A stretch of 64,000 bases of DNA. Source: Seohaeicola saemankumensis (lineage in GTDB: Bacteria > Pseudomonadota > Alphaproteobacteria > Rhodobacterales > Rhodobacteraceae). Below, one piece after another: positions 25,507 through 36,731 of this stretch. The stretch lies in NCBI RefSeq assembly GCF_020171285.1, contig NZ_JAIUZI010000003.1, forward strand, positions 124,001 to 188,000, given 5' to 3'. The first letter of the stretch is position 1. Each line of letters starts with the position of its first letter. The notes under the pieces were generated by a model. That model worked only from the letters and a program-made list of their open reading frames with translations. It was not told where the DNA came from and did not search any database. Position numbers and translations under genes: made by a program.

Positions 25507-26328
25507 TTACCGCCGAGCGCTCCAACTCGCCGACGCGTGACGGCGCGTGTAGAATTCACCCATCAGTCCGATCATCATCATGACGAGCCCAACCCAGAAC
25601 GCATACTGCCAGTTGCTGTTGAACGGATTGTAGTTGATGAACGTGTGACCCCTTGCCTGGTCAATGGCATGAAACAGGGGGTTCCACGAAAACATGGGCA
25701 GCATGAAGCCAGGCAGAGAGTTGGCAAGGAACATTTTGCCTGACGCGATCATGTTGGCGCGCTGATAGATCGACATCGCCACCCCCACAAAGGTGGGAAA
25801 CCATGGTTTTAGTGCCAGAAAAATCAGACCGACCGAAAAGCCTGTGAACCATGCCAGCAACATCATGCCGAATGCAGGTATCGGCTCTTCGATGTGAATT
25901 GGGACAAAAGCGACGTGGTAGATGAACAGGATGACAAAGACGGTAAGCACCTGAATATACAGCGCGCCCAAGGCTGCCGCTGCAATGGCTACGATCGTGT
26001 TCATTGGCGCATGTTGCATCATCGGGGAACTTGGCCCCTCTGAACCTACGACAGCCGACACGGTTTTGATGTGGCACATGTACAGGAAAATGCCAGACAT
26101 CACGTACAGCAGGAAATCGCCCCGCACTGCAGAGCTGCGCATGCCCAGAACAGAGAACATCAGGTAAAAGGCCGCAACCAGTACAACGATCTGCAAAATG
26201 TTCTTGGCGATGGCCACGAATGCGTTGCTGTGCGATGCGCGCACACTGCGAACGGCGGCATGAAAGATCAGCTCGATCATTGTGAACGCGCCGCTCAATC
26301 GCGATCTGTGTACTCTATGCCGAAACAT
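25507..26328 (-). CDS. KpsM-like ABC-2 polysaccharide export permease
   Basis: 273 residues starting at the ATG at 26328 (MFRHRVHRSRLSGAFTMIEL). Six membrane segments, with the ABC-2 pattern FLLYVMSGIFLYMCHIK, MLLAWFTGFSVGLIFLALKP and a Trp/Asn-rich NPLFHAIDQARG before the last segment. The conserved tail GEFYTRRHASASWSARR is as in roseobacter KpsM relatives. It would export a surface polysaccharide with an ATPase (KpsT) that is not in the window. The open frame runs on to 27162, but that part is antisense to cysQ and is spurious. Confidence 0.87.
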   Translation of the reverse strand: MFRHRVHRSRLSGAFTMIELIFHAAVRSVRASHSNAFVAIAKNILQIVVLVAAFYLMFSVLGMRSSAVRGDFLLYVMSGIFLYMCHIKTVSAVVGSEGPSSPMMQHAPMNTIVAIAAAALGALYIQVLTVFVILFIYHVAFVPIHIEEPIPAFGMMLLAWFTGFSVGLIFLALKPWFPTFVGVAMSIYQRANMIASGKMFLANSLPGFMLPMFSWNPLFHAIDQARGHTFINYNPFNSNWQYAFWVGLVMMMIGLMGEFYTRRHASASWSARR

Positions 26329-26448
26329 TAATCTTTGACCCCGAGACTCAGCACTCAAATATGCACGGAAATCTTGCCGTTCCGTTGCGACCGCAGCATA
26401 AGAGGCGGTGTACCGATTTTCAACAATTCGCAAAACTGGAGCCCTTTT

Positions 26449-27246
26449 GTGAACTACGATGCTCTTATTCCTGTCATCCGAAAGCTTGCCATCGAGGCAG
26501 GCACCGAAATCATGAAGATCTACGATGCGGATGATTTCGACGTTAAGGTGAAGTCGGACGACAGCCCCGTGACCGCAGCCGACGAAGCGGCGGACGCCCT
26601 GATCTCCAAGGGGCTGCGCGCCGCCTTTCCGGATGTGATGCTGGTGACAGAAGAGCAGGCCGACAGTCACAAGTCCTCGGGCGATACGTTCCTGATCGTC
26701 GACCCATTGGACGGAACCAAGGAGTTCATACATCGTCGTGGCGACTTCACGGTCAACATCGCACTGGTGGAAAACGGTGTTCCCACGCGCGGCGTGGTTT
26801 ATGCGCCGGCCAAGAACCGTATGTTCTTTACTCTGCCGGATGGCAGCACCGTCGAGGAAACAGGTGCCTTCGATCCTGATACAATTGGTGAAACGACACC
26901 GATCAACGTGGCGGACAGCGACAATAGTGCCCTGATGGTCGTTGCATCCAAATCGCACCGGGACCAGGCCACAGACGATTACATCAACAAGTACAGCGTC
27001 AAAGACATGAAAAGCGCGGGCTCCTCGCTGAAGTTCTGCCTTGTGGCGACCGGTGAAGCGGATCTTTATCCGCGGGTCGGCCGCACGATGGAATGGGACA
27101 CAGCGGCGGGTCATGCCGTTTTGCACGGCGCGGGCGGCAAGGTGGTGCGTTTCGACGATCACACCCCGCTGACCTATGGCAAGGACGGCTACGCCAACCC
27201 GTTTTTCATCGCCTATGCGCCTGGAGTTGAGCTAAAAGAAGCCTGA
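26449..27246 (+). CDS. cysQ: 3'(2'),5'-bisphosphate nucleotidase CysQ
   Basis: 265 residues from a GTG at 26449 (V/MNYDALIPVIRKLAIEAG) with GGAG upstream. The inositol-monophosphatase-fold metal site DPLDGTKEFIHRRGDFTVNIALV and the C-terminal WDTAAGHAVL are complete. It hydrolyses PAP, the inhibitory by-product of sulfotransferases, and PAPS. Divergent from the permease and 1-base overlapping kdsB, it starts the rightward glycan operon that ends in a sulfotransferase, which gives its presence a reason. Confidence 0.92.
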   Translation: MNYDALIPVIRKLAIEAGTEIMKIYDADDFDVKVKSDDSPVTAADEAADALISKGLRAAFPDVMLVTEEQADSHKSSGDTFLIVDPLDGTKEFIHRRGDFTVNIALVENGVPTRGVVYAPAKNRMFFTLPDGSTVEETGAFDPDTIGETTPINVADSDNSALMVVASKSHRDQATDDYINKYSVKDMKSAGSSLKFCLVATGEADLYPRVGRTMEWDTAAGHAVLHGAGGKVVRFDDHTPLTYGKDGYANPFFIAYAPGVELKEA

Positions 27247-28046
27247 TGTCGGTATTGGTGGCCATCCCCGCGCGCTTTGCGTCGACCCGGTACCCGGGCA
27301 AGCCGCTGGTCCCTGTGACCGGCGCAAGGGGTGTGTCCAAGACCCTGATTCAACGCAGCTGGGATGCGGCGTGTGCGGTCCAGGGCGTGGACCGCGTGGT
27401 TGTGGCGACAGACGATGAACGCATCCGGACCGAAGCAGAGGCGTTCGGGGCCGAAGTCGTGATGACCTCGTCCGACTGCGCCAATGGAACGGAACGTTGC
27501 GCCGAGGCGTTCGACAAACTCGGCGGTGGGTTCGATATCGTGGTGAATTTGCAGGGCGACGCGCCGCTGACGCCTGCTTGGTTCATCGAGGAACTGGTTG
27601 CGGGCCTGCGTGCAGACCCAATGGCCGAGGTCGCCACACCCGTCCTGCGTTGCGATGGCCGGGCCTTGAACGGGTTTCTCGACGATCGCAGGGCTGGTCG
27701 CGTTGGCGGGACAACCGCGGTGTTCACCCAAAATCACCACGCCATGTATTTTTCGAAAGAGGTCGTGCCGTACACCTCGGAACGTTACAACGACGGCGAT
27801 GAAACACCGGTGTTCCATCACGTCGGCGTTTATGCCTACAGACCCTCGGCGCTGGGCGCCTACCCGCGCTGGACGCCGGGACCTTTGGAGCAGTTGGAAG
27901 GTCTGGAACAACTGCGTTTCATGGAGCATGGCCACACCGTCCTGTGTGTTGAGGTCGAAGCGCGGGGTCGCCAGTTCTGGGAGCTGAACAATCCCGAGGA
28001 CGTACCCAGGATCGAGGCGATGCTGGCGGAGATGGGATTGGAATGA
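27246..28046 (+). CDS. kdsB: 3-deoxy-manno-octulosonate cytidylyltransferase
   Basis: 266 residues. The CMP-Kdo synthase signatures ARFASTRYPGKPL (N terminus), VVATDDERI, VNLQGDAPL and the product-side FWELNNPEDV are present. It activates Kdo as CMP-Kdo for LPS inner core or capsule linkers. It overlaps cysQ by one base (TGATG) and the next glycosyltransferase by four (ATGA). KpsU is the capsule-linked form of this enzyme; it sits here beside a KpsM-like gene. Confidence 0.94.
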   Translation: MSVLVAIPARFASTRYPGKPLVPVTGARGVSKTLIQRSWDAACAVQGVDRVVVATDDERIRTEAEAFGAEVVMTSSDCANGTERCAEAFDKLGGGFDIVVNLQGDAPLTPAWFIEELVAGLRADPMAEVATPVLRCDGRALNGFLDDRRAGRVGGTTAVFTQNHHAMYFSKEVVPYTSERYNDGDETPVFHHVGVYAYRPSALGAYPRWTPGPLEQLEGLEQLRFMEHGHTVLCVEVEARGRQFWELNNPEDVPRIEAMLAEMGLE

Positions 28047-29278
28047 CCTCTGCGCTGACGGTCAGTGTTGTGATCGTCAGCCGCGAGCGCCCGGATGCGC
28101 TGCGCCGTTGCCTGATGGCGGTATCGCAAATAACCTATCATCCGTTTGAGGTCGTGGTTGTTGCCGACCCGGCCAGTTGCGCCCATGTGCGCGGGTGGCC
28201 GCGGGCTGCTCAGGTCAGGGTCGTTCCTTATGACAAGGCGAATATCTCGGCGGCCCGCAATCTTGGGATAAGCATGGCGACTGGTGACATCATCGCCTTT
28301 GTCGATGACGATGCCGTGCCTGAGCCAACTTGGCTGACCTATCTGATTTCACCATTTCGCGACGCTCGGGTCATGGCCGCCGGCGGTTGGGTGCGTGGGC
28401 GAAACGGTATTTCCTGGCAATCGCAATCGCAATCGGTGGAGTGCACCGGGGCGACCGTGCCGTTGGAGGTGGATTCCGGTCGAGCGATGGTATTCAACGC
28501 GAGGCCGGGCAGGGCGATCAAGACCGAAGGAACGAATATGGCCGTGCGCAGATCCTGTCTGGCTGCAATTGGCGGATTTGATGAAAGGTATCGCTATTTT
28601 TTGGACGAGACGGATTTGAACCTGCGACTGGCGGCGATGGGCGCGGCAACGGCCCTGGTCCCGCGCGCCGAGGTGCACCATGGCTACGAGGCCAGTGCCA
28701 GGCGGCGTTCTGACCGGGTGCCGACGGATCTGTTCGAGATTGGCGCGAGCTGGGCGGTCTTTCTAGAAACTCACTGCCCCGCATCCAGACGCAAGGCGCG
28801 CTGGGCTGCGATTCGGGCGGAAGAACGCCGCCGTGCCCTGCGGCACATGGTTAGTGGAGCTCTGGAGCCTCGGGATGTTGGAAAATTGATGCGTGGGTTG
28901 CAGGCGGGTTACCAGGAAGGTTTGAAACGCGGGCCAGCCCGGCTGTCTGCGTTGCCTGAACCGAGTGTCACGTTCCGCCCGTTCGCGTCGGAAGCAGGGA
29001 CGTCCAGTATCGTTATCGCGGGGCGGATCTGGTCCCGGAAGAAGCTGCTGCAGCAAGCCCGCCGCGATGTTGCCGCTGGACACATCACTAGCCTTTTTTG
29101 CTTTTCTCCAACTGCCATCTTTCATCGTGTCCAGTTCAACGACGATGGGGTCTGGCAACAATTTGGCGGTCTGTTCGGACGCAGTGAGCGCACGCAAAAG
29201 CTGTTCCGGTTCTGGCGGTTCAAGCACAGGGTGCGAGCGGAATCGGATCGTATCGGCGCCGTTCGCGGGATCAGCTGA
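28043..29278 (+). CDS. Glycosyltransferase family 2
   Basis: 411 residues. The GT-A domain occupies the first 230 residues: TVSVVIVSRERPDALRRCL, NISAARNLGIS, the DxD-type FVDDDAVPEP, and FDERYRYFLDETDLNLRLA. A C-terminal part of about 180 residues has no recognised domain. The donor and acceptor cannot be read from sequence. It overlaps kdsB by 4 bases, so it probably acts on the same glycan. Confidence 0.85.
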   Translation: MTSALTVSVVIVSRERPDALRRCLMAVSQITYHPFEVVVVADPASCAHVRGWPRAAQVRVVPYDKANISAARNLGISMATGDIIAFVDDDAVPEPTWLTYLISPFRDARVMAAGGWVRGRNGISWQSQSQSVECTGATVPLEVDSGRAMVFNARPGRAIKTEGTNMAVRRSCLAAIGGFDERYRYFLDETDLNLRLAAMGAATALVPRAEVHHGYEASARRRSDRVPTDLFEIGASWAVFLETHCPASRRKARWAAIRAEERRRALRHMVSGALEPRDVGKLMRGLQAGYQEGLKRGPARLSALPEPSVTFRPFASEAGTSSIVIAGRIWSRKKLLQQARRDVAAGHITSLFCFSPTAIFHRVQFNDDGVWQQFGGLFGRSERTQKLFRFWRFKHRVRAESDRIGAVRGIS

Positions 29279-29427
29279 GTTAACGTGCTGGAAAGCGCAC
29301 AACTGATAAAAAATAAGGCCAAGTGCAGCGGTTTCCTGAGCGCAAAGCTGTTACTATTCGCATGTTGGTGCAACACTGATCGAAAGCGCCCGGGGGGTGC
29401 CTGCATTGGATTTTGAGGAAGAGGTTG

Positions 29428-30321
29428 ATGCGCAGAAAAGTAACGAAGGCGATTTTTCCGGTTGCTGGATTGGGAACGCGGTTTTTGCCGGCGACCAAAT
29501 CGGTACCGAAGGAGATCATGACGCTGGTCGACCGCCCGCTGGTTCAATACGCGATTGACGAGGCGCGCGCTGCGGGGATCAAGGAGTTTATCTTTGTGAC
29601 TTCGCGCGGCAAATCTGCGCTTGAGGACTACTTTGATCACTCGCCGGTTCTGGAACAGGAACTGCGCAAGAAGGGCAAGGACAAGCTGCTGGAGACGCTG
29701 AAGGCGACCAACATGGAATCCGGCGCGATTGCCTATATCCGTCAGCACAAGGCACTGGGCCTGGGCCACGCGGTATGGTGCGCACGGCGCCTGATCGGCA
29801 ACGAGCCCTTTGCAGTGATGCTGCCCGATGACGTTATCGCCGCCGAGGTGCCCTGCCTTCAACAGATGGTCGAGGCTTATGAGGAGACCGGCGGCAACAT
29901 GGTCGCGGCGATGGAAGTGCCGCCGGAGAAAGCGTCGGCCTACGGTGTACTGGACGTGAAAGAGGACATGGGTTCGATCGTGTCGGTGCGCGGCATGGTG
30001 GAAAAGCCGGCGCCGGAAGAGGCCCCGTCGAATCTGGCTGTGATCGGGCGCTACATTCTGAACCCGTCGGTGCTGAGTAACCTGAATCGGATGAAATCCG
30101 GCGCAGGCGGAGAAATCCAGCTGACCGACGCGATTGCTGAAGATATCGATGCCGGGCGCGATGTATACGGCTACCGGTTCCGCGGACAGCGGTTCGATTG
30201 CGGATCAAAGGCCGGTTTCCTGCAGGCGACAGTCGCATTCGCGCTAGCCCGTGATGACCTGCGTGACGACCTGTCCCGGTATCTGAGCGAGATCGTACAG
30301 GTCGACAAGGCCGCGCAATAG
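29428..30321 (+). CDS. galU: UTP-glucose-1-phosphate uridylyltransferase
   Basis: 297 residues from the ATG at 29428 with a strong GAGGAAGAGG site; a TTG at 29413 is less likely. The nucleotide-binding signature GLGTRFLPATKSVPKEIM is intact, with AVMLPDDVI and GEIQLTDAIAED further on. GalU makes UDP-glucose for cell-surface glycans. A 149-base upstream gap suggests its own promoter. galE follows after 20 bases. Confidence 0.95.
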   Translation: MRRKVTKAIFPVAGLGTRFLPATKSVPKEIMTLVDRPLVQYAIDEARAAGIKEFIFVTSRGKSALEDYFDHSPVLEQELRKKGKDKLLETLKATNMESGAIAYIRQHKALGLGHAVWCARRLIGNEPFAVMLPDDVIAAEVPCLQQMVEAYEETGGNMVAAMEVPPEKASAYGVLDVKEDMGSIVSVRGMVEKPAPEEAPSNLAVIGRYILNPSVLSNLNRMKSGAGGEIQLTDAIAEDIDAGRDVYGYRFRGQRFDCGSKAGFLQATVAFALARDDLRDDLSRYLSEIVQVDKAAQ

Positions 30322-30341
30322 CGCCAGGCGGGGGCTTGTTC

Positions 30342-31325
30342 GTGAGCAATATCCTGGTGACAGGCGGTGCGGGCTACATTGGATCGCATGCCTGCAAGGC
30401 GTTGAAGGCGGCGGGTTACACCCCGGTGACCTTCGACAACCTGGTTACAGGCTGGCGGGACGCGGTGAAATTCGGTCCGTTCGAAGAGGGCGAACTGAGC
30501 GACCGGGCGCGGCTGGACGCGGTGTTTGCACAGTATCAGCCGGCGGCGGTGATGCATTTTGCTGCCCTGAGTCAGGTCGGCGAGGCGATGCGCGAGCCGG
30601 GGCGTTATTGGCGCAACAATGTCGAGGGGTCGCTGACGCTGATCGAGGCGTCGGTGGCGGCGGGCTGCAAGCGTTTCGTGTTTTCCTCGACCTGCGCGAC
30701 TTACGGCGACCATGACAACGTGGTGCTGGACGAGGATACGGTGCAGCTGCCGCTCAACGCCTATGGTGCCAGCAAGCGCGCGATCGAGGACATGCTGCGC
30801 GATTTCGGCGCCTCGGACGGGCTGGAATCGGTGATCTTTCGATACTTCAACGTGGCCGGTGCCGACCCGGAAGCGGAGGTGGGCGAGTTCCACCGGCCGG
30901 AGACTCACCTGGTGCCGCTGATGTTGGAGGCGATCGACGGCAAACGCGACGCTCTGACAGTGTTTGGAACCGATTACGATACGCCGGATGGCACCTGCAT
31001 TCGCGACTATGTGCATGTTTGCGATCTGGTGGATGCGCATGTCATGGGGCTGAAGTGGCTGCAGGATGGTCGTGGCAGCGAGGTTTTCAACCTTGGCACC
31101 GGCAGTGGGTTTTCGGTGATGGAGGTGATCGAACAGTCGCGGGCGGTGACCAACCGCGTGGTGCCCTATGACATTGGCCCCCGTCGTGCTGGTGACGCCA
31201 CAAAACTGGTCTCCGGCTCGACCCGTGCCGCTCGCGACCTGGGCTGGACACCAAAGCGCTCAACCATGACTCAGATGATCGAAGACGCATGGAGATGGCA
31301 CAAAACTGGACAGTATGAAAAATAG
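30342..31325 (+). CDS. galE: UDP-glucose 4-epimerase
   Basis: 327 residues from a GTG at 30342 (V/MSNILVTGGAGYIGSHACKAL); a TTG at 30336 is possible. The NAD-binding TGGAGYIGSH, the catalytic YGASKRAIED and the substrate region RYFNVAGADPE are standard for GalE of the extended SDR family. It interconverts UDP-glucose and UDP-galactose. Together with galU it supplies precursors for the downstream glycosyltransferases, and it overlaps the next gene by 11 bases. Confidence 0.94.
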   Translation: MSNILVTGGAGYIGSHACKALKAAGYTPVTFDNLVTGWRDAVKFGPFEEGELSDRARLDAVFAQYQPAAVMHFAALSQVGEAMREPGRYWRNNVEGSLTLIEASVAAGCKRFVFSSTCATYGDHDNVVLDEDTVQLPLNAYGASKRAIEDMLRDFGASDGLESVIFRYFNVAGADPEAEVGEFHRPETHLVPLMLEAIDGKRDALTVFGTDYDTPDGTCIRDYVHVCDLVDAHVMGLKWLQDGRGSEVFNLGTGSGFSVMEVIEQSRAVTNRVVPYDIGPRRAGDATKLVSGSTRAARDLGWTPKRSTMTQMIEDAWRWHKTGQYEK

Positions 31326-32541
31326 CGCGCCACCTGCGCGTTTGCTGGATCTGACTCGGCTGATCAGTCGCGCGGGACGTGTCGCGACCGGGGTGGATCG
31401 CGTCGAACTGGCCTATCTTGATTACCTGATGCAGCGGCCTGATCCGCTGTTTGCGGTGGTTCGCACAACCCTTGGGTTTGTCCTGCTCGACCGCAAAGGG
31501 GTGATGGCGGTTCAGAAGCGTTTATCGGGCCAAGTAAACTGGGGAATGCCTGATCGTTTGTCCAGACTTGCCCGCAGCAAGTCTCCGGAAGTGCGGCGGG
31601 CTGAAAGCGACTTGCGCCGGCACGCGCTGGATCGCTGCCTGCCGCGGGGGCTGTTCAAAATGCTGGCCCGGCATCTGCCAAAGGGGTCTGCCTACCTGAA
31701 TGTCGGGCATTCCAACCTGACTGATCGCATGTTTCAATCGGTGAGACACGGGCTGGGCGGCCGGACAGCGATCATGATCCACGATGTCATCCCACTGGAG
31801 TTCCCGCAGTTTCAGCGACCGGGCACACCGGAAAAGTTTCGACAGATGCTGAAGCGCGTTCGCGCGCAGGCCAATGTGGTGATCTATAATACTTCCGACA
31901 CCAGAGACCGGGCGGAAAGGTATATGGAACAATGGGGGCCGCCACCGAAAGGAGTCGTTGCCCATTTGGGCGTCAACGTAGGCGAGACCGAACCAGAAGC
32001 CCTGCCCGCGGGGCTTATCCCGTCTGAACCGTACTTCGTAACCCTTGGCACCATCGAGCCGCGCAAGGGACACGATATGCTGTTGGACATCTGGGAGAAC
32101 TGGGAAAATGGCTCAGTCGCGCCGGGCTTGCTGATCTGTGGATCGAGGGGTTGGAACAACGATGCCGTTTTCGCCAGGCTGGACGCTCTGCCCAAAGGCG
32201 GACCGATCCGCGAACTTCAGGGTCTGGAGGATGGCGCAATTGCCGCACTGCTGAAGGGGTCCAGCGGCCTGCTTTGTCCTAGTCACGCCGAAGGGTTTGG
32301 TCTTCCTGCGGCCGAAGCGGCGGCTCTGGGAGTTCCGGTCGTTTGTTCTGATCTTCCGGCGTTTCGCGAAGTTCTGGGAGACTATGCAGTTTACGCAGCA
32401 GAAACGGACCGTTATCAATGGCGCAACAGAATTCAAAGCCTGATCAAGGGTCGAGGAGAGCGAGAAAAGGCTGGCAAAGGCGCGGAATTTATTGCGCCGA
32501 CGTGGGCTGATCACTTCAATACCGTCTTAAAGTATACCTGA
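31315..32541 (+). CDS. Glycosyltransferase family 1/4 (GT-B)
   Basis: 408 residues. The N-terminal half starts LLDLTRLISRAGRVATGVDR, seen in bacterial GT4 proteins of the 'D-inositol-3-phosphate'-like group. The C-terminal half has the GT-B signature CPSHAEGFGLPAAEAAALGVPVV with the two Glu of the EX7E motif. It uses a nucleotide-sugar donor at the cytoplasmic membrane face; specificity is unknown. It overlaps galE by 11 bases. Confidence 0.86.
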   Translation: MKNSAPPARLLDLTRLISRAGRVATGVDRVELAYLDYLMQRPDPLFAVVRTTLGFVLLDRKGVMAVQKRLSGQVNWGMPDRLSRLARSKSPEVRRAESDLRRHALDRCLPRGLFKMLARHLPKGSAYLNVGHSNLTDRMFQSVRHGLGGRTAIMIHDVIPLEFPQFQRPGTPEKFRQMLKRVRAQANVVIYNTSDTRDRAERYMEQWGPPPKGVVAHLGVNVGETEPEALPAGLIPSEPYFVTLGTIEPRKGHDMLLDIWENWENGSVAPGLLICGSRGWNNDAVFARLDALPKGGPIRELQGLEDGAIAALLKGSSGLLCPSHAEGFGLPAAEAAALGVPVVCSDLPAFREVLGDYAVYAAETDRYQWRNRIQSLIKGRGEREKAGKGAEFIAPTWADHFNTVLKYT

Positions 32542-32586: not shown

Positions 32587-33597
32587 GTGGGCGTATGGCA
32601 GTCATACCGCCTGAGGATCCAGCGGAAACGCTGGCGTATTCGCGCGTTTCGTAAACGACGCGAGTTGCATCCTGTTGCCAACCGCACGGCCCAAATACTC
32701 GCTAACGATATTATCGTATTCTGCACCCAGCGCAACGAACGGACCCGGCTGCCGTTTTTTCTGAATTATTATCGCGATATGGGTGTCGGACATTTCGTGT
32801 TTGTCGACAACGACAGCACGGATGGATCACTGGATTACCTGTCTGGTCAACCGGATGTGTCGGTCTGGCATACGCGGGCCAGCTACAAGCGGTCGCGTTT
32901 CGGCGTGGATTGGCTGAACTGGCTTCAACGCAAATATGCCGATGGGCACTGGTGTCTGGTGGTCGATCCGGATGAATTTCTGGTTTACCCATTCTGCGAC
33001 ACCCGACCATTGCAGGCACTCACGGATTGGCTGGACGCATCGTCGATCAAATCCTTCAGCGCGATGTTGCTGGACATGTACCCAAAGGGTCGGCTTGATG
33101 CGCAACCCTATGAAGAGGGGCGCGATCCGATCGAGATCGCCTGCTGGTTCGACAGCGGTAACTATACGCTCAAAAAGAACAAGAAATTCGGCAACTTGTG
33201 GATTCAGGGCGGCCCGCGCAGCCGTGTGTTTTTCCGCGACATGCCTGCAAAGGCGCCCGCATTGAACAAGATTCCTTTGGTAAAATGGGACAAGAAATAC
33301 ACCTACGTTAGCTCCACCCATATGCTGCTGCCACGCGGGTTGAATCAGGTTTTCGACGAGTGGGGCGGCGAAAAGGCCAGCGGCGTGCTGCTGCATGCCA
33401 AATTTCTTGATACCTTTTCGGCCAAGGCGAAAGAGGAACTGGAACGTAAACAGCACTACTCCGCATCGGTCGAATACCGTGCCTATGCCGAAAGTCTGAA
33501 GGACGATCCCGAGCTTTGGTGCAAATGGTCGGAAAAATACATAAACTGGCGACAGCTTGAAATCCTCGGGCTGATGTCGAAAGGAAACTGGGCGTGA
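32587..33597 (+). CDS. Glycosyltransferase family 2-type (Glyco_tranf_2_4)
   Basis: 336 residues from a GTG at 32587. FCTQRNERTRLPFFLNYYRDMG, FVFVDNDSTDGS and WCLVVDPDEFLVYP mark the Glyco_tranf_2_4 / GT92-like family, in which the DPDE carries the metal-binding Asp. The C-terminal 150 residues are basic and probably also catalytic. It overlaps the next gene by four bases (GTGA), consistent with the pair acting together. Confidence 0.8.
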   Translation: MGVWQSYRLRIQRKRWRIRAFRKRRELHPVANRTAQILANDIIVFCTQRNERTRLPFFLNYYRDMGVGHFVFVDNDSTDGSLDYLSGQPDVSVWHTRASYKRSRFGVDWLNWLQRKYADGHWCLVVDPDEFLVYPFCDTRPLQALTDWLDASSIKSFSAMLLDMYPKGRLDAQPYEEGRDPIEIACWFDSGNYTLKKNKKFGNLWIQGGPRSRVFFRDMPAKAPALNKIPLVKWDKKYTYVSSTHMLLPRGLNQVFDEWGGEKASGVLLHAKFLDTFSAKAKEELERKQHYSASVEYRAYAESLKDDPELWCKWSEKYINWRQLEILGLMSKGNWA

Positions 33598-35291
33598 CGG
33601 TTGGGATTGTCATGCTGGTCCATACCGCCCTGAACCGGGCCGAGCAGGTTGCCCGGCACTGGACGGCGGCGGGTTGCCCGGTGGTCATTCATGTCGACCG
33701 GAATGTGCCGCGGCGCGTCTACAACCGCTTTACGTCTTCCGTCGCGGACAACCGCATGATCCGCTTCAGCGAGCGCCATCGCTGTGAGTGGGGCACCTGG
33801 GGTATCGTGGCTGCGTCGCAATCCGCGTCGGAACTGATGTTGGAGAGTTTTCCGGACGTCAGCCATGTTTACCTTGCTTCGGGCTCCTGTTTGCCGCTGC
33901 GCCCGGTACAGGAACTGATCGATTATTTGGCGGCCCGCCCGCGCACCGATTTCATCGAAAGCGCGACAACAGCAGACGTGCCGTGGACCGTTGGCGGTCT
34001 TGATAGCGAACGGTTCACCCTGCGGTTTCCCTTTTCATGGAAAAAGAACCGCTATCTGTTCGACAAATACGTCGACCTGCAAAGACGGGTCGGGTTCAAG
34101 CGAAAGATCCCTTCCGGATTGGTGCCGCACATGGGCAGCCAGTGGTGGTGTCTGACGCGCCAGACCTTGTCCGCCATCCTGCAAGACCCGGAGCGGGAGA
34201 CCTATGATCGTTACTTCAGGAAGGTATGGATCCCGGACGAAAGCTATTACCAGACCCTGGCAAGACAGTACTCGACCAATATTGAAAGCAGGTCGCTGAC
34301 GCTGAGCAAGTTCGATTTTCAGGGTAAGCCGCATATTTTCTATGATGACCATCTTCAGCTGCTACGAAGGTCCGATTGTTTTGTCGCACGCAAAATCTGG
34401 CCGCGGGCCGAGCGCCTGTATCAGGCGTTTTTGGCCGACGGCGCGGGTGCGATGAACAAGACAGAACCGAACCCGGGCAAGATCGACCGGATTTTCGCCA
34501 AGGCGGTTGAGCGGAGAACGCGCGGCCGACCCGGTTTGTACATGCAAAGCCGATACCCCAATGCCGGCTGGGAAAACGGTCTGACCTCGAACCCATACTC
34601 CGTCTTTCAGGGGTTTTCAGAGCTCTTTGAGAATTTCGAGCCATGGCTGGCCAAGGCCACCGGCGCACGGGTCCATGGCCACATCTTTGCCCCTGACCGG
34701 GTTGAATTTTCCGGCGGTCAGACACTAATCAACGGCGCATTATGTGACAGCGCGGCAAAGCGCGATTATGCACCAGAAGCCTTTTTGACCAGTCTGATAT
34801 GGAATACCCGCGGTGAGCGGCAGTGTTTTCAGTTCGGCCCGGGCGACAACCAGGACATCAACTGGTTCATAGCGCGCGACCCGAATGCGCAGATATCCGT
34901 GATTTCTGGCACCTGGGCGGTCCCGCTTTTCCGGTCAAACCGAAACTTCGCGGATCTTCGTAAAGAGGCGGCCGAGTTGCAGCGGATCGAAAGCAGTCAC
35001 TTGGATGTTTTGCGATCGACACATACCAAAGCCCGGATACGAATCTGGACCATGGCCGAGTTTGTTGAGGCGCCGATGGAACCGATCCAGACCATTATCG
35101 ATGAAATCGGTCCTCCCGGTCAGCGCCACTTGGCCGAAGCGCCGACGATGGCCAACCTCGAAGGGTTCGGGCAGTTCTTGCAGAACCTCAAGAATCAGGG
35201 AATGCATCCCTATCTGATGGGTGATTTCCCGGTGGAACAAGGACCGGTCAAAATGCCAAAGCCCACGCGCAAACCCTATTTGGTGCGATAG
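33594..35291 (+). CDS. GT14-like (core-2/I-branching) glycosyltransferase with C-terminal domain
   Basis: 565 residues from a GTG at 33594. The first 270 residues fit the 'Branch' family: VMLVHTALNRAEQVARHW, CEWGTWGIVAASQSASEL, VYLASGSCLPLRP, MGSQWWCLTRQTLS and WIPDESYYQTLARQ. Known members transfer GlcNAc or xylose. The remaining 290 residues form a second domain (SKYPN..., GHIFAPDRVEFSGGQ) of unknown function, like the DUF5927/5928 type in roseobacters as I recall. It overlaps both neighbours closely and probably adds branches to the same glycan. Confidence 0.8.
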   Translation: MTVGIVMLVHTALNRAEQVARHWTAAGCPVVIHVDRNVPRRVYNRFTSSVADNRMIRFSERHRCEWGTWGIVAASQSASELMLESFPDVSHVYLASGSCLPLRPVQELIDYLAARPRTDFIESATTADVPWTVGGLDSERFTLRFPFSWKKNRYLFDKYVDLQRRVGFKRKIPSGLVPHMGSQWWCLTRQTLSAILQDPERETYDRYFRKVWIPDESYYQTLARQYSTNIESRSLTLSKFDFQGKPHIFYDDHLQLLRRSDCFVARKIWPRAERLYQAFLADGAGAMNKTEPNPGKIDRIFAKAVERRTRGRPGLYMQSRYPNAGWENGLTSNPYSVFQGFSELFENFEPWLAKATGARVHGHIFAPDRVEFSGGQTLINGALCDSAAKRDYAPEAFLTSLIWNTRGERQCFQFGPGDNQDINWFIARDPNAQISVISGTWAVPLFRSNRNFADLRKEAAELQRIESSHLDVLRSTHTKARIRIWTMAEFVEAPMEPIQTIIDEIGPPGQRHLAEAPTMANLEGFGQFLQNLKNQGMHPYLMGDFPVEQGPVKMPKPTRKPYLVR

Positions 35292-35297
35292 AACGGA

Positions 35298-36731
35298 ATG
35301 ACCGCGCCCTTTGACTACTTCATCATGTTTGCGGAAATGCGAACCGGATCCAATTTTCTGGAAACGAACCTGAACGCGCTGGACGGAGTGACTTGCCACG
35401 GTGAAGCGTTCAACCCGCATTTCATCGGCTACCCGAACAAGACCGAGATCTTGGGCGTGACCCAGGCCGAACGCGAGGCCGACCCGTCCCGCCTGATACG
35501 TGCGATCCGCGACCAGAAAGGCGTTCTGGGCGGGTTCAGGTATTTTCACGATCATGACCCTCGTGTTCTGGAGCTGGCCTTGGAGGATTCGCGTTGCGCC
35601 AAGATCATCCTGACGCGCAATCCACTGGACAGCTATGTGTCGTGGAAGATCGCCCAGACCACAGGTCAATGGAAACTGACGGACGTAAAACGCCGCAAAG
35701 AAGCCAAGGCACGTTTTGACCCGGACGAATTTTCCACCCACGTTGAGGCGTTGCAGGATTTTCAAGTTCTGCTGCTGAACCAACTGCAACACAGCGGGCA
35801 GACGGCGTTCTACGTCGCATACGAGGATTTGCAGGACCTTCAAATGATGAACGGGCTGGCCAAATGGTTGGGCGTGCCCGCGCGGCTTGAGTCGCTGGAT
35901 CAGAAGTTGAAACGGCAAAACCCCAGCCCCGTAATCTCAAAGGTGTCCAACGTCGATGAGATGATCGATTCGCTCAGCGGTCTGGACCGGTTCAACTTGT
36001 CCCGGACCCCAAATTTCGAGCCGCGCCGGGGCGCCGCAGTGCCCAGTTATGTAGCCGGCGCAAGTGCTCCGTTGCTTTTCCTGCCAATGCGCGGGGGGCC
36101 CGAGGAAAACGTCATCCGCTGGATGGCCGCTCTGGATGGAGTGGAAACGGACGGGCTGCAGACCCGGATGAATCAAAAGCAGTTGCGCAAATGGAAACGG
36201 ACGCGCCCCGGTCACCGCAGCTTTACCGTGTTGCGCCACCCTCTGGAACGCGCGCACAGTGTGTTCTGTAACCGAATTCTGACGACCCGGCGTGGCAGTT
36301 ATCTGCAAATCCGCGAGACGCTGCGCAAGCAATTCAAGCTGCCGTTGCCCAAATCGGAACCCGACGACAGTTTTTCGCGGGCAGATCATCGAGCCGCGTT
36401 TGTTGCCTTTATGGAATTCGTCCGCATGAATCTGGCTGGTCAAACCGGTGTCCGCGTCGATGGGGCGTGGTGCACACAAAGCCAGACGCTGGCCAGTTTT
36501 ACCGACTTTGCTCCTCCTGATCACGTCCTGCGCGAGGATGAAGCGGCCGGGCAGCTCGCTCAGATGGCCGGAGTTCTCGGGTATCCAGATCCGCCTGAAA
36601 TGGATACTGCGACCGACGATACTCCGTACGCGCTCGCAGACATTTATGATGCCGAACTCGAAGCGCTGGCGGCGGATGTGTACCAGCGCGACTACGTAAT
36701 GTTCGGGTTCTCAGACTGGCGGGGCAGCTGA
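35298..36731 (+). CDS. Sulfotransferase with two sulfotransferase-like halves (NodH/Stf0-like)
   Basis: 477 residues. The first half has the PAPS 5'-phosphosulfate loop MRTGSNFLETNL (near residue 15), GEAFNPH, and the 3'-phosphate motif ILTRNPLDSYVSWKIA (near residue 103), as in Stf0/NodH sulfotransferases. The second half, from about residue 255, has FTVLRHPLERAHSVFCNRIL (near 308), a 3'-phosphate motif of a different sulfotransferase branch, but its 5' loop reads LPMRGGPEENVIRW and lacks the usual Lys. It closes the glycan operon and would add sulfate to the polysaccharide. The acceptor is unknown. Confidence 0.78.
   Translation: MTAPFDYFIMFAEMRTGSNFLETNLNALDGVTCHGEAFNPHFIGYPNKTEILGVTQAEREADPSRLIRAIRDQKGVLGGFRYFHDHDPRVLELALEDSRCAKIILTRNPLDSYVSWKIAQTTGQWKLTDVKRRKEAKARFDPDEFSTHVEALQDFQVLLLNQLQHSGQTAFYVAYEDLQDLQMMNGLAKWLGVPARLESLDQKLKRQNPSPVISKVSNVDEMIDSLSGLDRFNLSRTPNFEPRRGAAVPSYVAGASAPLLFLPMRGGPEENVIRWMAALDGVETDGLQTRMNQKQLRKWKRTRPGHRSFTVLRHPLERAHSVFCNRILTTRRGSYLQIRETLRKQFKLPLPKSEPDDSFSRADHRAAFVAFMEFVRMNLAGQTGVRVDGAWCTQSQTLASFTDFAPPDHVLREDEAAGQLAQMAGVLGYPDPPEMDTATDDTPYALADIYDAELEALAADVYQRDYVMFGFSDWRGS

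Follow-up and report, generated by a model that had tools for sequence, protein, structure and literature searches.

The window, a 64,000-nucleotide stretch of a contig from Seohaeicola saemankumensis (NZ_JAIUZI010000003.1, positions 124,001 to 188,000), carries a same-strand gene run in the order cysQ, kdsB, GT2, galU, galE, GT4, PF13704, GT14-DUF5927 and sulfotransferase. The genes are listed below, with their occurrence among the loci compared where this was counted.

25507-26280, minus strand: KpsM/VexB-like ABC-2 permease, divergent from cysQ (63/80 loci)
26335..27246 (start approximate), plus strand: CysQ, 3'(2'),5'-bisphosphate (PAP) nucleotidase, first gene of the run (TIGR01331, 267.4 bits against a cut-off of 228.8)
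27246..28046, plus strand: kdsB, CMP-Kdo synthetase
28043..29278, plus strand: GT2-type glycosyltransferase (31/80 loci)
29413..30321, plus strand: galU
30336..31325, plus strand: galE
31315..32541, plus strand: GT4-type glycosyltransferase (36/80 loci)
32587..33597, plus strand: glycosyltransferase PF13704 (Glyco_tranf_2_4), conserved upstream (77/80 loci)
33594..35291, plus strand: Branch (PF02485, GT14) glycosyltransferase with C-terminal DUF5927, the obligate upstream partner (adjoining in 80/80 named loci)
34389..35288, plus strand: DUF5927 domain of that glycosyltransferase
35298..36731, plus strand: two-domain sulfotransferase, 477 aa

Downstream of the sulfotransferase gene lie the convergent genes ptsN, hpf, lptBAC and kdsD. 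The names of lptB and kdsD come from the same search as that of cysQ, and we take ptsN, hpf and the other lptBAC genes to be such by recognition of their sequences. No gene for an ATPase partner was identified beside the KpsM/VexB-like permease. Each of the 53 loci with kdsB has cysQ directly upstream of it; sulfur and Kdo genes are not usually paired in this way.

The last gene of the run was confirmed as a coding frame for a sulfotransferase of two halves. The frame comprises 477 codons from an ATG start, and the reverse frame contains stop codons. Searches against NCBIfam and PHROGs assigned the protein to no family, and promoter and terminator scans found sites no more often than in shuffled sequence. 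Its parts are as follows.

35298..35987, plus strand: N-half, residues 1-230, NodH/Stf0-type sulfotransferase domain, predicted to be catalytic
35337..35354, plus strand: 5' PAPS loop of the N-half, MRTGSN (residues 14-19)
35403..35405, plus strand: E36, candidate general base
35610..35642, plus strand: 3'-phosphate loop of the N-half, LTRNPLDSYVS (residues 105-115)
35988..36047, plus strand: linker, residues 231-250 (RTPNFEPRRG), conserved in sequence
36048..36728, plus strand: C-half, residues 251-477, degenerate Sulfotransfer_2 (PF03567) domain
36069..36110, plus strand: 5'-loop region of the C-half, PLLFLPMRGGPEEN (residues 258-271)
36216..36266, plus strand: 3'-phosphate-like loop of the C-half, R307-F323 (RSFTVLRHPLERAHSVF)

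An AF2 model of the protein, built on 80 sequences, reached a mean pLDDT of 84.4 (mostly above 90 within the C-half), and in both halves strands and helices follow the sulfotransferase order. The linker was modelled with low confidence (pLDDT below 50 at about residues 230-247) and the pTM of the model was 0.52; the placement of the N-half relative to the C-half is therefore not fixed by the model. Foldseek matched the model to Stf0, TPST, heparan 3-O-sulfotransferase and NDST structures, in a table that does not identify the aligned half. The original prediction, that the protein consists of two halves each with a sulfotransferase fold, was borne out; for residues 246-477, Pfam, profile-profile comparison and AF2 agree on this fold.

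The N-half had been described as Stf0/NodH-like with both PAPS motifs, and this description held. A profile of 30 orthologues, from 30 genera, matched the solved structure 9vki ('LPS sulfotransferase NodH') over residues 5-152 with an E-value of 2.7e-15. Residue conservation in both halves was counted in a union alignment of 109 orthologues. In the N-half, R15, T16, G17, S18 and N19 of the Arg-containing (RxG) 5' loop were present in 109/109, as were R107, N108 and S115 of the 3'-phosphate loop. E36, likewise found in 109/109, aligns with the Glu of the HGE/HYE motif in free-standing NodH-like proteins and is a candidate for the catalytic base. Sulfotransferases are recognised by a 5'-loop Lys (Arg in Stf0, RxG in NodH), a 3' Ser, and a His or Glu as base (PMC11625862). 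With its invariant RxG loop, its 3' loop Ser and E36 as candidate base, the N-half agrees with this description, and it looks like an active NodH/Stf0-type domain that would carry out PAPS-dependent sugar sulfation.

The N-half also differs from its known relatives. It shares with NodH-type proteins (PF13469; 9vki) the 5' loop with Arg in place of Lys. The window copy, however, stays under the Pfam cut-off for PF13469 (17.4 bits against 27), and its score for PF00685 is also weak and below threshold (17.9 bits against 22). PF13469 was matched by 14 of the 30 orthologues at an E-value of 0.01 or lower, the best being 2.4e-6. The 264-residue 9vki is a single-domain protein, whereas the protein described here adds a second half with a sulfotransferase fold. 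The mycobacterial trehalose sulfotransferase Stf0 (1tex; Foldseek E 2e-4) also has an Arg-containing 5' loop, but it is a single-domain enzyme with another acceptor and from another lineage.

The C-half matched PF03567 (Sulfotransfer_2) over residues 293-472 with an E-value of 1.5e-8 and a score of 35.5 bits, above the cut-off of 22. In hhalign, its comparison with free-standing Sulfotransfer_2 proteins gave an E-value of 1.3e-7 (prob 94), whereas 14 profiles of neighbouring genes, used as controls, gave 0.0074 or worse. The original prediction of a 3'-phosphate-like motif near residue 308 and of a missing standard 5' loop Lys proved right on both points: the motif is FTVLRHPLERAHSV at residues 309-322, and the 5' loop of the window protein, LLFLPMRGGPEEN (residues 259-271), holds no PKT/PKC-type Lys. 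The Lys of the free-standing relatives aligns with G266 of the C-half, or with M264 when the alignment is anchored on the Pro residues before it, and neither column holds Lys or Arg in any of the 109 orthologues. Pro-Glu stands where the 5' loop would otherwise have Thr/Ser. The 3' motif of PF03567 is PxxRxxS (PMC11625862); its P and R are retained in the C-half, and position 321 is Ser in 13/109 and Ser or Thr in 20/109. The His of the HW motif (H390) is present in 24/109. The C-half thus shares with PF03567 members such as HS2ST, the chondroitin sulfotransferases and free-standing bacterial proteins the fold and the PxxR of the 3' loop; unlike them, it has no Lys and usually neither Ser nor His, residues called defining or catalytic in PMC11625862. 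In the same class, free-standing Sulfotransfer_2 proteins kept the Lys in 11/11 cases, including members from two genera without the fusion. Because the aligned Lys is never present, Ser and His are mostly gone and the free relatives keep their Lys, the C-half is, as judged from these alignments, most likely a family-wide pseudosulfotransferase, with the fold kept and the PAPS chemistry lost.

It had also been proposed that the enzyme modifies two positions. Both halves would then be catalytic, and the C-half would use R265 (or K265), one residue from the usual Lys. Residue 265 is indeed basic in 89/109 sequences, R313 and R318 are kept in 104/109 and 108/109, and the window copy has both R265 and a complete PxxRxxS motif. 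However, residue 265 is basic in only 19 of 30 genera and not in the other 11, and the replaced Thr/Ser of the 5' loop and the low counts of Ser/Thr321 and H390 also speak against this proposal. Basic 265, R313, R318 and Ser/Thr321 occur together in 15/109 C-halves, the least degenerate ones, with the window copy among them, and in combination with H390 in 1/109. We therefore regard sulfation at two positions as very unlikely. Since 15 sequences do combine basic 265 with the two Arg and Ser/Thr321, some C-halves may retain residual nucleotide binding. We favour the other proposal made from the sequence, that one half is active and the other structural or acceptor-binding: the motifs are kept in the N-half and lost in the C-half, and activity of the former and an acceptor role of the latter are the probable extensions.

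Conservation of the C-half bears on what such a role would be. The C-half is less conserved than the N-half, with a mean entropy of 1.67 against 1.18 bits and with 33/225 against 67/226 columns holding one residue in at least 95% of sequences. This, and the fact that intact orthologues always keep the fusion at full length, would suit a folding or dimerisation scaffold that makes no contact with the acceptor. Yet R313, R318, H314, P315, W391, Q394 and D465 are retained in at least 104/109 orthologues (H314, P315, Q394 and D465 being invariant, R313, R318 and W391 nearly so). They lie in what were once the PAPS-loop and HWxPQ motifs and exceed the needs of a scaffold, which makes scaffolding alone an unlikely function. 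The same Arg residues could instead bind a phosphorylated ligand, either PAP or the phosphate of a lipid or glycan acceptor, with the C-half serving as a sensor or acceptor anchor. In favour of this, the 3'-phosphate loop has kept its Arg residues almost without exception whereas the sulfate-side loop has gone, and a PAP phosphatase gene lies in the same run; but R313 is replaced in 5/109 and most sequences lack the Ser of the 3' loop, and we consider binding of this kind improbable too. Our preferred reading remains that of a non-catalytic domain for the acceptor or the partner enzyme. Pseudoenzymes are well known among kinases. A survey of the open-access literature, in which few subscription journals are covered, found no description of a pseudosulfotransferase or of a tandem sulfotransferase.

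An internal tandem duplication was considered as the origin of the two halves and rejected. The halves match different families, Sulfotransfer_2 aligning with the C-half and not with the N-half, and their alignment with each other by hhalign (E 2e-4) was out of register (145-193 against 116-162). As the halves belong to different sulfotransferase families, profile comparison indicates that the gene is a fusion and not a duplication. Outside Rhodobacteraceae, relatives in the same class were found only at the length of the N-half (frames of 241 and 296 aa). NDST, the bifunctional heparan N-deacetylase/N-sulfotransferase, likewise joins its sulfotransferase domain to another domain that works on the same glycan. 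The second domain of NDST, however, is a deacetylase, whereas the enzyme described here has a degenerate sulfotransferase in that place, with the glycosyltransferase encoded as a protein of its own.

The fusion occurs only in Rhodobacteraceae, where about 249 of 299 genomes hold both the sulfotransferase and DUF5927 (a count made after removal of the exception cases described below), against 0 of 284 other genomes of the class. Matches were found in 32 of 36 sampled genera of the family (one genome each, besides the window's own set), nearly all at full length, and in 0 of 24 genomes of other families. In a class sample of 289 genomes, full-length matches were limited to the five members of the family that it included. 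A public genome set yielded 579 confirmed relatives, and the named loci belong to Rhodobacteraceae/roseobacters. Recurrence on this scale goes well beyond chance.

Within the family, the two-domain sulfotransferase is an obligate neighbour of the GT14-DUF5927 glycosyltransferase. A survey of 61 genomes showed full concordance in presence and absence (32/32 and 29/29), the same 32 genomes holding both. Among 299 genomes, the sulfotransferase and DUF5927 were each found in 254, with three discordant each way when the presence lists were compared by eye; DUF5927 was found in 0 of the 284 non-family genomes of the class. In four genomes, DUF5927 is followed directly by ptsN and the sulfotransferase is gone, and in a fifth, a different gene follows DUF5927. 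The glycosyltransferase therefore persists without the sulfotransferase in about five genera. A further match begins at a contig end, and another genome has a fragment. No intact sulfotransferase without GT14-DUF5927 was seen among the exceptions examined. Two of the unusual loci have features of their own. The fifth genome, which has DUF5927 and lacks the fused enzyme, carries two tandem genes for NodH-like single-domain sulfotransferases, and at another locus a transposase occupies the place expected for the glycosyltransferase and the N-half, leaving a C-half remnant alone.

Pfam gives no function for DUF5927, and the open-access literature, with few subscription journals covered, held no paper naming it. 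The AF2 model of the domain (pLDDT 74.6, core about 90) has the same strand and helix order as the N-half, and hhalign aligned the two in the expected register with an E-value of 7.8e-4, the other 16 comparisons giving 0.086 or worse. Foldseek matches were weak, the best being to guanylate kinase (E 0.036) and then TPST2 (E 0.046), and nothing below 1e-3 was found among viral models. A DUF5927 profile searched against PDB sequences and Pfam scans of DUF5927 members gave no sulfotransferase match, and the would-be 5' loop lacks the RTGS motif. With only these weak P-loop kinase and TPST matches in Foldseek, the comparisons suggest rather than prove that DUF5927 is a degenerate domain of sulfotransferase-like or P-loop-like type. 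One could go further and take DUF5927 for a third, fully degenerate NodH-like domain, so that a GT14-pseudosulfotransferase and a sulfotransferase-pseudosulfotransferase would join via their inactive domains to form a single complex, in which a sugar is added and sulfated in one hand-over. We offer this as a tentative idea and think it rather doubtful.

The gene run offers a context for the proposed reaction, since its content points to a Kdo-linked surface glycan, either LPS core or capsule-like. The GT14-DUF5927 glycosyltransferase would add a sugar to this glycan, and the N-half would bind PAPS and move sulfate to a hydroxyl of that sugar, the acceptor probably being a Kdo/galactose-containing surface glycan of the LPS core or capsule-like type. 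CysQ, encoded in the same run, would remove the by-product PAP; CysQ also has a role in general sulfur metabolism. The C-half, a former Sulfotransfer_2 enzyme, would most likely hold the acceptor glycan or the partner glycosyltransferase. Taken together, we consider it somewhat better than even, at a probability of about 0.6, that the protein is a carbohydrate sulfotransferase specific to Rhodobacteraceae whose N-half sulfates the GT14-DUF5927 glycan and whose C-half, itself non-catalytic, serves the acceptor or the partner. A large bacterial family, marine for the most part, would then have conserved a pseudosulfotransferase together with one particular glycosyltransferase, a link that points to a sulfated surface glycan, so far undescribed, in roseobacters and their relatives; no report of sulfated LPS or capsule in roseobacters was found in the open-access literature. 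The pairing also offers a testable function for DUF5927.

APS kinase was tried as a marker of the pathway and set aside as uninformative, as it occurs with or without the sulfotransferase gene. It is present in the Seohaeicola saemankumensis genome and in most carriers. Three carriers have no convincing APS kinase, one of them with a genome 98% complete and the other two at 91-93%. Two further observations concern single records. An orthologue from a metagenome-assembled genome has a stop codon near its C-terminus, at residue 466 of the match. The record JAHVJD010000003.1, a 544 kb contig titled Nocardioides marinus, carries a locus typical of Rhodobacteraceae and fully syntenic with theirs; it looks mislabelled or contaminated.
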